Below are positions 2,406-47,907 of a stretch of 64,000 nt of DNA, piece after piece. The notes under the pieces are model-generated. The model was not told the origin of the DNA. It worked only from the letters and a program-made list of their open reading frames with translations, and searched no databases. Positions within the stretch are counted from its first letter, which is position 1, and the number at the start of each line of letters is the position of its first letter. The DNA comes from Pseudoprevotella muciniphila (GTDB lineage Bacteria; Bacteroidota; Bacteroidia; Bacteroidales; Bacteroidaceae). The stretch is from NCBI RefSeq assembly GCF_003265305.2, contig NZ_CP033459.1, positions 1,550,001 to 1,614,000 on the forward strand, written 5' to 3'. The translations under genes were made by a program, and so were the position numbers.

Positions 2406-2550
2406 AATGTTTGTATGTTTAAAATGATTACTCTTTCTAAACACACGATCACTGGGAGTGCAGTCAGGGGTATGCCTATAGAAAGGCGGACAAGAAGAAT
2501 CCTTTCCACTGCTTGTTCTATCTCCCGAGAACGTGCGTGAATGCAAAAAA

Positions 2551-2712
2551 GTGGCAGGTCTTCTGACTTTGTCCGCTTGACAAACGCCTTCCCACGCAAC
2601 AGGAGCGCAGTGGCGGTGATGTTTGCAAGCATAAATGGACTTACAGCAGCGGGAACTGTTGCCGAATTTCACGGCATTCCCTCTTGGCCGAACGTGTTCG
2701 GAACCACTATGC
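2551..2712 (-). promoter_or_regulatory. Cobalamin riboswitch
   Basis: Read on the minus strand, 2681-2641 carries the conserved core: GGGAA, GGTG-like CCGTGAAATTC, and a CAGTTCCCGCTGCTGTAA segment. After the variable middle (GCCACTGCGCTCC and GTGGGAAGGCG segments) the B12 box AGTCAGAAGACCTGCC lies at 2568-2553. The order and spacing are those of an adenosyl/methyl-cobalamin aptamer. About 145 bases separate the aptamer from the start at 2405, enough for an expression platform. When cobalamin is bound, expression is expected to fall (known for the family). Confidence 0.9.
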
Positions 2713-2717
2713 AGGTG

Positions 2718-2725
2718 CAAAGGTA
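2718..2725 (-). promoter_or_regulatory. Promoter -7 box for the riboswitch transcript
   Basis: TACCTTTG on the minus strand matches the Bacteroidota TAnnTTTG box and lies a few bases upstream of the aptamer. No clear TTTG -33 box was seen. Confidence 0.5.
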
Positions 2726-45211: not shown

Positions 45212-45239
45212 CCCTTCCAACAGCAAGGCTATAAATATT

Positions 45240-45280
45240 GCAGCCGCCACGCATCGACGTGACGGCTGCAAATGTTTTTA
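45240..45280 (+). terminator. M16 gene terminator
   Basis: GCAGCCG-CCACG pairs with CGTG-A-CGGCTGC, followed by AAATGTTTTTA. It starts about 30 bases after the stop. Confidence 0.8.
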
Positions 45281-45392: not shown

Positions 45393-45424
45393 TTTGACTA
45401 ATTAAAGATTTATATGTAGTTTTG
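45393..45424 (+). promoter_or_regulatory. Promoter of the SPFH/zinc-ribbon operon
   Basis: TTTG at 45393-45396 and TAGTTTTG at 45417-45424, 20 bases apart. Transcription would start near 45430, giving a leader of about 245 nt before ATG 45676. Confidence 0.65.
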
Positions 45425-45434
45425 TAGAGCTTTT

Positions 45435-45653
45435 ATGGCAAAAGCCATTTTAGCGCGACATATTGGTTAATGTAGCGTTCAGCTATCAATCTTGGTTTCG
45501 AGAATGTAGGAGTTTGAGAAACATGTCATAAAGATGGATAGAGTGAATGCTCACGTGTTAAGCGTGAGCTTTACTTATCTAATGACATGGGCATCTCCTA
45601 CAGCCTTCGAACCAGATTAAGTAAGTTCACGCTTTTTCTTATGTATGTAGGAG
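45435..45653 (+). promoter_or_regulatory. Long structured 5' leader, candidate riboregulator
   Basis: Within the predicted leader a small hairpin ATGGC-AAAA-GCCAT lies at 45435-45448. A large nested hairpin spans 45488-45618: outer stem AATCTTGGTTTCGA with TTCGAACCAGATT (two bulges), TGTAGGAG (45505-45512) with CTCCTACA (45595-45602), CATGTCAT (45522-45529) with ATGACATG (45582-45589), an imperfect GATA/TATC helix, and GCTCACG (45549-45555) with CGTGAGC (45563-45569). Two downstream segments repeat the pairing options: TGTAGGAG again at 45646-45653, and TCACGCTT at 45627-45634, complementary to AAGCGTGA at 45560-45567. These allow mutually exclusive folds. It matches no riboswitch class I can name. 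Confidence 0.6.
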
Positions 45654-45675
45654 AAATCTTAAAAACATTATTGTT

Positions 45676-46773
45676 ATGGCAATTATAGACGTTGTTAAGT
45701 ACGAACAACAAGAAGGTGTTATCGTACAAAAATTTCCTTCTTGTGACCTAAGGTGGGGTTCACAACTTGTAGTTTATCCTGGACAGGTTGCATTTTTTGT
45801 TAAAGGTGGTACTGTTTGTGATAAATTTACTGATGGCACTTATACTCTTCATTCCAAGAATATACCTCTGCTAAACAAGATAATTAATTTGCCATTTGGC
45901 GGTGATTCTCCATTCCAAGCAGATGTTTGGTTCGTTAATCTATTACAACGACTTAGCCTCAAGTGGGGTACAGAAACTCCAATACAACTTGAAGATCCCA
46001 AATACAATATTATTGTGCCAGTACGCGCGCATGGTCAATATGGTTTCAAAATTAGTGATGCTGAAAAGTTTGTATATACACTTGTTGGCAATATGCCACA
46101 ATTCAGTGAGTCTCAACTTCAAGCTTATTTCCGTGGATTACTTTTGACTAAATTGACAAGTATCGTAGCTCAAAAGATTGTAGAAGATAAAATATCCGTT
46201 CTTGATATTCCTACACGTTTGAATGACATTTCAGTTTATTGTCAAAATGAGCTGCAACCATTCTTTGCAGATTATGGTGTTGAAATATTGTTATTTAATA
46301 TTATTTCTATTAACATTCCTGAAGATGATGAAAGTCTCAGGGAAATTAAGAAAGCTAAAAATTTGTCAGCGAGATTGCATATTGCTGGGCGCGAGAACTA
46401 CAAGATGGAACGTTCATTTGATGTAATGGATAAAGCGGCAGAAAATGAAAGCGGCACTGGGGCAGCTTTTATAAATGCAGGTCTTGGCTTGGGTGCTTCT
46501 GTAAATATGGGCAAACAAATGGCAGAGAGTTTAGCTCCTAATAATGGTGAAGCACCTCCCCCTATACCCATTAATGTTTCATATTATCTTGCAATCAATG
46601 GCCAACAACAAGGACCATATACTGCTCAACAAATAAACGAAGCTATTGCACAAGATAGTTCCGTTTTGGAATTGAATGCATGGAAGAAAGGCATGACAGG
46701 ATGGCAACCTCTTAAAACATTTAGTGAGTTTTCTGCACTTGAAAACGGAGAATTGCCTCCACCAATTATATAA
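45676..46773 (+). CDS. SPFH-domain protein with C-terminal GYF-like domain (YdjI-like)
   Basis: 365 residues, no signal peptide. Residues about 1-250 match the SPFH/Band-7 type found in YdjI and virion-core-like proteins: an N-terminal Trp-Gly-Ser-Gln-Leu-Val-Val, Gly-Gln-Val-Ala-Phe-Phe-Val-Lys-Gly-Gly and a later Ile-Leu-Leu-Phe-Asn-Ile-Ile-Ser-Ile-Asn strand. A Gly/Ala-rich stretch and a Pro-rich linker lead to a GYF_2-like domain (about 307-355) with Tyr-Tyr-Leu-Ala-Ile-Asn-Gly-Gln-Gln-Gln-Gly-Pro-Tyr and Trp-Lys-Lys-Gly-Met-Thr-Gly-Trp. It probably assembles on membranes; the role is unknown. Codon use is much more AT-rich than in neighbouring genes. Followed after 24 bases by the zinc-ribbon gene. 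Confidence 0.85.
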   Translation: MAIIDVVKYEQQEGVIVQKFPSCDLRWGSQLVVYPGQVAFFVKGGTVCDKFTDGTYTLHSKNIPLLNKIINLPFGGDSPFQADVWFVNLLQRLSLKWGTETPIQLEDPKYNIIVPVRAHGQYGFKISDAEKFVYTLVGNMPQFSESQLQAYFRGLLLTKLTSIVAQKIVEDKISVLDIPTRLNDISVYCQNELQPFFADYGVEILLFNIISINIPEDDESLREIKKAKNLSARLHIAGRENYKMERSFDVMDKAAENESGTGAAFINAGLGLGASVNMGKQMAESLAPNNGEAPPPIPINVSYYLAINGQQQGPYTAQQINEAIAQDSSVLELNAWKKGMTGWQPLKTFSEFSALENGELPPPII

Positions 46774-46797: not shown

Positions 46798-47907
46798 ATG
46801 AAAGCATTACAATGTGAAATGTGTGGTAGCCAAGATTTGGTAAAAAATGAAGGTGTTTTTGTATGCCAATCTTGTGGTACAAAGTATTCTGTAGAAGAAG
46901 CCAAGAAAATGATGGTCGAAGGTACTGTAGATGTTAAAGGTACGGTAAAGGTTGACAAATCCAATGAAGTTGAAAAACTTCTAAAGTTAGCTAAAACATC
47001 AGTTGAGAGTCTAAATGGAGAAGAAGGGTACAATTATGCAAATAGAGTTCTAGAGATTGATCCTGAGAATTCACAAGCTTGGTATCTTAGGATGAAAGCT
47101 GTTGGGCAAACGGCTATTCTAAAGGATTTAAAAGTTTTAGAAGTTGTAAAAGCTGGAACAAATGCAATAAAATACTCTAACAATGAATTAAGCAAAGATG
47201 TATACACATATTTTTTAATTAAATGTTTAAATGATTTAAAGTTTTTAATGAAGCATATTTCTGATACTGATGCCATTAAAAGACTTTATGAGGCAAATAT
47301 TCGCGTAAACGCTTTTAAGGCTACTGAAAAGACTTTAGCAGCAGACAAAATATCAAATATAATCATGGAGCAAGCAAGCCTTGTCCTTCATCTCCGTAAA
47401 ATTGTACCAAATAAATTAGTATCAGAAAATCCAGACATTTCAAAGATAGTAGGTGAAGTTGCAAAACAATGGGTATATTATACGAACGCATTAAATGCGC
47501 GTTTTAATGTTATGGGAACTAAACTTAATGATGCAACCGTTGAGAAATATAGAAAAATTCTTGCTGAAATTAAACAAGGACTCCCCGAAGATGCACAGGA
47601 TGTTATATCTAATGAAGAAATATCTAATCCATCTTCTGGCCCTTGTTATGTCGCAACTGCAGTTTATGGATCTTATGATTGCCCACAAGTATGGACACTG
47701 CGCAGATTTAGAGATTATACTCTTGCTGAAAGTTGGCTTGGTTCGTTATTTATAAAAATTTATTATTCGATAAGTCCTACATTGGTTCATTGGTTTGGAA
47801 ATACATCTTGGTTCAAGACCATTTGGCGTAGTCTTTTAGACAAACTAGTAAATACTTTAAATGAAAGAGGTGTAGAAAACACCCCGTATCAAGATAGGAA
47901 GTTCTAA
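46798..47907 (+). CDS. Zinc-ribbon protein with CFI-box-like C-terminal domain
   Basis: 369 residues. The N terminus is a zinc ribbon with Cys6-x2-Cys9 and Cys23-x2-Cys26 of TFIIB type, as in YdjG-like partners of SPFH proteins. A helical, TPR-like segment (about 60-130, with Ala-Asn-Arg-Val-Leu-Glu-Ile-Asp-Pro-Glu-Asn) and a long helical middle follow. The last ~85 residues begin Cys-Tyr-Val-Ala-Thr-Ala-Val-Tyr-Gly-Ser and contain Leu-Arg-Arg-Phe-Arg-Asp and Ile-Tyr-Tyr-Ser-Ile-Ser-Pro, the pattern of CFI-box C-terminal domains. No enzyme motif. AT-rich like its partner; both probably form one operon ended by the terminator at 47923. Confidence 0.82.
   Translation: MKALQCEMCGSQDLVKNEGVFVCQSCGTKYSVEEAKKMMVEGTVDVKGTVKVDKSNEVEKLLKLAKTSVESLNGEEGYNYANRVLEIDPENSQAWYLRMKAVGQTAILKDLKVLEVVKAGTNAIKYSNNELSKDVYTYFLIKCLNDLKFLMKHISDTDAIKRLYEANIRVNAFKATEKTLAADKISNIIMEQASLVLHLRKIVPNKLVSENPDISKIVGEVAKQWVYYTNALNARFNVMGTKLNDATVEKYRKILAEIKQGLPEDAQDVISNEEISNPSSGPCYVATAVYGSYDCPQVWTLRRFRDYTLAESWLGSLFIKIYYSISPTLVHWFGNTSWFKTIWRSLLDKLVNTLNERGVENTPYQDRKF

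Follow-up and report, generated by a model that had tools for sequence, protein, structure and literature searches.

A probable transcription attenuator in 5' leaders dispersed over Bacteroidia, with covariation supporting two mutually exclusive RNA folds

Attenuators of the trp-operon type carry leader segments that pair as 1:2, 2:3 and 3:4, the last of these pairings being followed by a U-tract, and they control one biosynthetic operon. Conditional antitermination of the UpxY/LoaP type relies on a trans factor that acts on the leader RNAs of capsule or biosynthesis operons. As for long leaders in B. thetaiotaomicron, a published study gives 5' UTRs of over 100 nt for 13.5% of mRNAs and proposes leader-peptide attenuation for some of them (PMC7366714).

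We analysed a window of 64,000 nucleotides from Pseudoprevotella muciniphila (the whole stretch of DNA under study, whose numbering is used throughout). An earlier note on this DNA had proposed an unrecognised 5' leader with a nested hairpin, and the leader is supported by our results: a conserved RNA element of about 170 nt lies at 45472-45640 on the + strand, upstream of an SPFH/Band 7 gene. The parts of the locus are as follows.

45238..45271, + strand: terminator-like hairpin (inverted repeat), 3' of the upstream M16 peptidase gene
45393..45424, + strand: Bacteroidota-type promoter, with TTTG at 45393-45396 and TAGTTTTG (TAnnTTTG) at 45417-45424
45435..45448, + strand: short 5' hairpin ATGGC-AAAA-GCCAT, a predicted fold at the start of the predicted transcript
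45472..45640, + strand: conserved RNA element, full-length covariance-model match of 175.6 bits (19-copy model, the window itself being one of the 19 sequences)
45474..45487, + strand: segment 1 (O), AGCGTTCAGCTATC, partner of segment 2
45493..45502, + strand: 5' strand of H1 of the long hairpin, partner 45605-45614
45505..45512, + strand: 5' strand of H2, TGTAGGAG, some of it within a loop when the two hairpins form
45522..45529, + strand: 5' strand of H3, CATGTCAT, partner 45582-45589
45537..45556, + strand: segment 2 (P), partner of segment 3 (long hairpin) or segment 1 (5' hairpin)
45560..45580, + strand: segment 3 (Q), partner of segment 2 or segment 4
45589..45606, + strand: inner hairpin GGGC-loop-GCC, whose loop contains, when the two hairpins form, the 3' strand of H2, CTCCTACA (45595-45602)
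45614..45634, + strand: segment 4 (R), AGATTAAGTAAGTTCACGCTT, predicted to be the terminator's 3' strand
45633..45640, + strand: U-tract TTTTTCTT, where helix 3:4 ends
45641..45675, + strand: 3' flank up to the start codon, containing the second TGTAGGAG (45646-45653)
45676..46773, + strand: SPFH/Band 7 gene, its product ending in a GYF_2 domain (PF13421, E 1.6e-44; PF14237, E 2e-11)
46798..47907, + strand: presumed second cistron of the operon, whose product may have a zinc ribbon at its N terminus (Zn_ribbon_RRN7, a weak match under the curated cut-off)

The hairpin behind the M16 peptidase gene has 14-nt arms that are 93% complementary and, by eye, a T-rich tail on the + strand; a simple terminator scan called it on the minus strand only. 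From this terminator-like hairpin, it follows that the leader probably opens its own transcription unit. The promoter that had been predicted upstream is indeed there and is of Bacteroidota type, with 20 nt between its two boxes, while a scan for sigma-70 promoters returned none on the + strand at 45393-45424. If transcription starts near 45430, the leader would be about 245 nt long. The SPFH gene and its downstream neighbour lie in AT-rich sequence (G+C 0.32-0.38), compared with about 0.5 in surrounding genes. Elsewhere in the window, a cobalamin riboswitch was matched at 2536-2723 (-) with 105.5 bits.

The nested hairpin was confirmed as far more stable than shuffled sequence. The 141 nt at 45480-45620 fold at -58.3 kcal/mol, compared with -30.9 +/- 3.6 kcal/mol for 200 dinucleotide shuffles (z -7.7, 0/200 as good), and the wider stretch 45435-45675 gave a z of -6.3. 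All sequence words singled out in the earlier note were found at their places, i.e. TGTAGGAG at 45505 and 45646, CTCCTACA at 45595, AAGCGTGA at 45560 and TCACGCTT at 45627. A repeat search returned the outer nested arms (45493-45512/45595-45614), a 9-nt pair TCTCCTACA/TGTAGGAGA and a competing 21-nt pair (45560-45580/45614-45634). Helix 3:4 has as its core the pairing between AAGCGTGA and TCACGCTT, one of two exclusive alternatives; it grows to the 21-nt pair, covaries and runs into a U-tract. As for the list of helices, the nested hairpin stands, and the pairing of 45474-45487 with 45537-45556 had been overlooked.

A homologue of the element, 94% identical, was found in another species of the genus (genome G022, locus L009), at a non-syntenic site and before a different gene, whose product is lipoprotein-like by eye. 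Homology between the two copies starts at TAGCGTT and stops at CACGCTTTTT, and these sharp boundaries set the limits of the element; promoter, 5' hairpin and 3' flank had no sequence in common, a 5' hairpin of different sequence being predicted in G022 as well. Homologues of the SPFH gene at five loci (L002-L006, 52-83% identity) had no such leader in the 500 bases upstream, either by eye or by the covariance model, whose sole matches there were weak and lay more than 1.2 kb upstream (E 4.6e-5 in L006 and 0.01 in L002). The element is not tied to its downstream gene.

Using BLAST, matches were detected in 21 of 399 genomes of the taxonomic family (E<=0.01). A first covariance model, built on the first two copies, was applied to the window and to 32 loci retrieved by BLAST; 21 of these 33 sources had a sense match at E<=1 and the other 12 had none. 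The second model, built on 19 copies, matched at least 294 of the 399 genomes of the family, in 25 of 30 genera (E<=1e-3), at least 103 of 295 genomes of the order, in 75 of 184 genera (E<=1e-5), and at least 25 of 296 genomes drawn from the phylum, all 25 inside the class (E<=1e-5). These counts are lower bounds, as the scans, which stayed within the phylum, scored 7-9 candidates per genome. In the host genome (2.92 Mb), five sense copies were present with E from 8.8e-32 to 2.9e-4, together with one antisense echo (E 0.15), and nothing further was found up to E 1 among the 150 of 710 candidates that were scored, which indicates that the model is specific. On these sequence matches, the hairpin is one copy of a predicted RNA family dispersed over the class Bacteroidia. 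Short exact matches to motifs of the element were also seen in the viral contigs L224-L228. After removal of antisense echoes of sense copies (3/102 and 6/58 matches), 151 sense copies (99 + 52) were retained; L029, which shares its element with L028, and repeat fetches of sites already included were left out.

Next to these copies, genes were placed in one direction. For 136 copies, 400 nt of sequence were available on either side. An ORF of at least 100 aa started on the same strand, no more than 200 nt downstream, in 125 of them, and the control, on the other side and strand, gave 14/136. For 146/151 copies, there was an ATG ORF of at least 40 aa whose start lay between -5 and 200 nt downstream; the longest such ORF was taken (median distance 65 nt). 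In the 110 nt before 150 copies, TAnnTTTG occurred 118 times vs 11.3 expected, and 113 of these copies had it at least once. The proteins encoded downstream are unrelated: in the 143 that were scanned (the 146 minus three left out), the largest Pfam groups were MmeI_Mtase (17) and LRR (7), and several restriction or methylase domains occurred 4 times each. Since the downstream genes have no evident common pathway, no ligand is suggested. By a home-made measure, 87/146 downstream proteins looked secreted vs 30/126 products of the nearest upstream genes, the thresholds being different on the two sides (ORFs of at least 40 aa downstream and at least 100 aa upstream). The G+C content of downstream genes was lower (0.392 vs 0.455 upstream, p 4e-9).

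A general link to defence was considered, with MmeI_Mtase at 17/143 and mad2 at 19/143 downstream and neither of them among the 25 families (each with at least two members) listed for 136 upstream neighbours. We do not claim it, because one methylase family dominates (by eye, at least ten of the methylase matches belong to a single family of ~226 aa) and because upstream genes match many PADLOC models too (287 families vs 150). Four copies in one genome (G500; L167, L170, L174 and L175) precede genes sharing internal repeats of ~69 bp, presumably BspA-type leucine-rich repeats.

The earlier note had named a covariance search of homologous leaders as its test, and these leaders do show compensatory changes. 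Covariation supports two predicted, mutually exclusive folds, a long hairpin built on pairing 2:3 and a pair of hairpins built on 1:2 and 3:4. For the long hairpin, 27/36 RNAalifold pairs had compensatory changes in a structure-fitted alignment of 19 copies. In a sequence-based alignment of 30 copies from one subfamily (GTTTGGCG-type), with both structures taken from one of the 30, 23/46 of its pairs had changed on both sides, compared with 16.7 +/- 1.6 after shuffling (1/500), the covariation score was 0.312 vs 0.144, and 85.6% of cells were paired vs 35.9-47.0% when slid. The corresponding values for the two-hairpin fold were 24 pairs with two-sided changes (shuffled 15.7 +/- 2.1, 0/500) and 81.9% of cells paired (39.8-48.8% when slid); in both cases, the shuffle controls leave relatedness among copies in place. 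The basal 1:4 helix of the minimum-energy fold was paired in 85.8% of cells of the same 30 copies and had no covariation. A tree-based test of independent pairs, which was underpowered, found 1 and 3 pairs on supported branches and was not significant.

We also compared, without any structural alignment, the energies of cognate and non-cognate duplexes in 73 non-redundant copies (below 80% identity, drawn from 129 usable copies; the 22 of 151 without anchors included 8 of 9 fetched from G500). Cognate duplexes were better for 1:2 (p 4.8e-9), 2:3 (p 1.6e-10) and 3:4 (p 5.5e-12), and no coevolution was detected for 1:4 (p 0.14), 2:4 (p 1.0) and 1:3 (p 0.85). The result persisted with controls restricted to relatives at 60-80% identity. 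The H1-H2 arms were likewise better matched as cognates. The pairing of H5 with the start of segment 4, which is outside the model, gave a weaker signal (p 2.0e-3), perhaps because both windows contain H1 strands. At one position of segment 3, C pairs with G in both segment 2 and segment 4 in 15/15 copies from 6 genera (129/151 usable). The closing pair of the inner hairpin, in the pattern GGY-loop-RCC, was C-G 30 times, T-A 100 times and C-A never (164/165 copies), this pattern being mis-registered in several copies, which may explain 12 T-G cases.

When folded alone, the 5' and 3' halves of the element form the two hairpins. Across all 151 copies, the last 8 nt of the match average 6.44 T and the next 8 nt 3.30, with the caveat that the model itself favours T in these last 8 nt; the anchor rule, by which at least 4 T are wanted in the 6 nt after segment 4, plays no part in this average. 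In 14/14 class-level copies fetched, which entered the 3'-half folds, the U count and the inner-hairpin count and stayed outside the duplex-energy and 30-copy tests, the 3' half folds at -29.3 kcal/mol or better and 4-8 T are present in the last 8 nt, the U-tract being weak (4-5 T of 8) in L220, L212 and L214. In every one of the 73 non-redundant copies, the long hairpin is the more stable of the two folds, with a mean advantage of 13.7 kcal/mol (range 0.5-26.8).

Our preferred explanation, to which we assign a probability of roughly 70%, is that the element attenuates transcription in cis from within the 5' leader of the downstream gene, and that the family of such attenuators is dispersed over Bacteroidia. 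A conserved structured RNA, placed before genes on the same strand, with a promoter box ahead of most copies and with both folds maintained, is what the comparison of copies establishes at the level of sequence. According to the proposed mechanism, four segments would compete. In the OFF state, 1:2 and 3:4 would form two adjacent hairpins, and 3:4 with the following U-tract would act as an intrinsic terminator. In the ON state, 2:3 together with H1-H3 would form the single 131-nt hairpin, leaving segment 4 free, and RNA polymerase would read on. Three points of this mechanism we infer: 3:4 would act as a terminator in the cell, the long hairpin would correspond to read-through, and the RNA would settle on one fold while still being transcribed. 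As the long hairpin is favoured at equilibrium in all 73 copies, termination must be kinetic or factor-driven. As a trigger, we favour a factor or RNA that would act in trans and recognise the H2 sequence; in the two-hairpin fold, both hairpins present this sequence in their loops.

We also looked for a leader peptide. An ATG right after the promoter box was present in 44/151 copies, and 41 of these 44 ORFs had 1-5 codons; 43/44 end 10-64 nt before the element, and 38/44 end 22-40 nt before it. The peptides are for example MKHSV, MKH, MV or M alone (L051, L057 and L098 among others). No common peptide was found in these 44 ORFs, and the frame comparison was weak (p 0.08 and 0.002).

The earlier note had read the element as a translational switch, in which pairings between element and flank mask or free the region of ribosome loading. 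Some copies do have such pairings: a 7-nt loop complement is present in the flank of 8/123 copies, the window included, vs 1.5% for non-cognate flanks, and strong element-flank duplexes are found in a minority (11/73 in the best 5%, p 9.8e-4). Of single segments, segment 1 paired with the flank in the best 5% in 13/73 copies (p 6.2e-5) and segment 3 in 8/73 (p 0.03). The TGTAGGAG repeat of the window is a weak case of this minority pairing. It is exact, but the second TGTAGGAG is missing from the 94%-identical copy in G022, the nearest relative, and the overall pairing of element and flank in the window does not stand out (-14.4 kcal/mol, which ranks at 0.27 against 127 non-cognate flanks). 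The GGAG supposed to be hidden or freed lies 23-26 nt before the ATG and is a poor ribosome site; Bacteroidota seldom use Shine-Dalgarno sites. What the copies have in common is rather the U-tract after 3:4, and the anatomy points to transcription termination over masking of a ribosome site. Of the earlier reading, the leader, the covariation and the AAGCGTGA/TCACGCTT switch therefore hold, the TGTAGGAG flank pairing as its main logic does not, and we regard a translational switch as unlikely. In the flanks of L088, L070, L137, L140 and L116, long near-complements of the element's 3' part follow the U-tract (-27 to -34 kcal/mol) and are a possible fifth segment. An outer helix between sequence before the element and the flank was also tried; it is strong in one subfamily (CGCACA/TGTGCG) and weak overall (p 0.015-0.06, and p 0.33 in wider windows), and was dropped.

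There is a similarly small chance that the element is a stand-alone small RNA gene which merely lies before other genes, these being expressed from another promoter or by leaky read-through. The promoter box upstream and the terminator-like end make a terminated product of ~200 nt imaginable, and non-homology of the downstream genes argues against such a gene, as does the same-strand ORF placement given above (125/136 vs 14/136), which departs from independence of the neighbours. Moreover, a small RNA gene gives no reason to maintain 2:3 against 3:4. Selection for 1:2 and 3:4 and the presence of the U-tract would likewise be left unexplained if the element acted on mRNA stability or processing, its long duplex serving, without any switching, as an RNase III substrate or as a shield of the 5' end; what speaks for this reading, which we consider rather remote, is that the hairpin is very stable, both in the window and in the 73 copies that were folded. 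Finally, the dispersal of copies, one of them non-syntenic in a congener with sharp homology limits, and the AT-rich downstream genes recall mobile DNA or a site of recombination (MITE, REP-like or attC-like) acting as folded DNA. This is disfavoured and very improbable, given that copies are oriented toward a gene and have promoter boxes upstream, that G-U pairs are tolerated on the sense strand, and that four exact patterns hit 0, 0, 1 and 4 viral contigs while two queries against phages and plasmids gave no match.

If the element is an attenuator, H2 deserves attention as the possible site of recognition. By loose patterns, the H2 types in the 151 copies include CGCCAAA (52), its flip TTTGGCGA (21), TCCTACA (20) and unclassified (53), and different types coexist within one genome. 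In the GTTTGGCG-type subfamily, 7 of 11 H2 pairs are invariant while H1 and H3 vary, a constancy that is partly by choice, as the subfamily was picked by its H2 type. CGCCAAA/TTTGGCG is seen in both strand orders, which stepwise compensatory change hardly gives. In the two-hairpin fold of the window, the H2 strands are in hairpin loops, and a recurrent, partly constant H2 in loops may point to kissing between loops or to recognition in trans. Conceivably, though we hold it doubtful, the family makes up a dispersed regulon, in which unrelated accessory genes (for surface proteins, DNA methylases and SPFH proteins) would share one attenuator, with H2 as an address read in trans. H2 could then be read by a protein, by a small RNA or, via loop-loop kissing, by leaders that were terminated at other copies; were the last true, copies would set each other's state.

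As for catalogued RNAs, a search of Rfam 15 gave no gathering-level match inside the element, either in the window or in 46 other distinct loci, and no Rfam riboswitch matched the window element. The element is thus apparently uncatalogued in Rfam, except for a small downstream motif in one subfamily. This motif, the 35-nt DUF805b RNA (RF02914, Rfam type Cis-reg), adjoins the element on its downstream side and lies outside of it; it reportedly comes from a 2017 survey by Weinberg and colleagues. In the subfamily concerned, it was found directly downstream in 13/15 loci at E<=2, 2/15 reaching the gathering score, and two other locus sets gave 1/16 (E<=0.1; L057, also among the 15) and 0/16 (E<=0.05). 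It had no match in the window, and no gathering-score match fell within the element. Its positions in the GTTTGGCG subfamily are, for example, 918-952 in L106, 418-453 in L125 and 1704-1738 in L057, with others similar. In L104 and L105, DUF805b lies within the called downstream ORF, from which it appears that the called start is probably too early. The Rfam model of DUF805b may represent only the tail of a larger leader. L104 also carries an RT-5 RNA (RF03026, 414-517, 73.5 bits, above the gathering score) about 1.5 kb upstream of its copy. In the literature, titles and the opening parts of abstracts contained no description of such a leader. A resemblance exists to the palindromic candidates, ending like terminators, that Fremin and Bhatt 2021 (PMC8040213) list for Bacteroidetes, such as HMP2_4205 of 132 bp; the likeness is one of description, and these candidates and the present family may overlap.

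If the attenuator reading is right, a very common regulatory RNA of Bacteroidia is missing from Rfam, save for the small motif downstream of one subfamily, and dispersed accessory genes share one RNA switch. Many natural copies with built-in compensatory changes would then offer a test of co-transcriptional folding and of termination vs read-through, and the set of copies would be a handle for finding the signal.

Compared with the trp-operon type, the element shares the segments 1:2, 2:3 and 3:4, the last followed by a U-tract, and the likeness extends to the pairings 1:4, 2:4 and 1:3, which are not selected here. It differs in that its 2:3 hairpin is extended by three more helices, in that it precedes unrelated genes and not one biosynthetic operon, and in that no conserved leader peptide was seen in a limited look. 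Antitermination of the UpxY/LoaP type would offer a factor that works in trans on leaders ahead of a terminator; its targets are capsule or biosynthesis operons, and its likeness to the present element is one of analogy.
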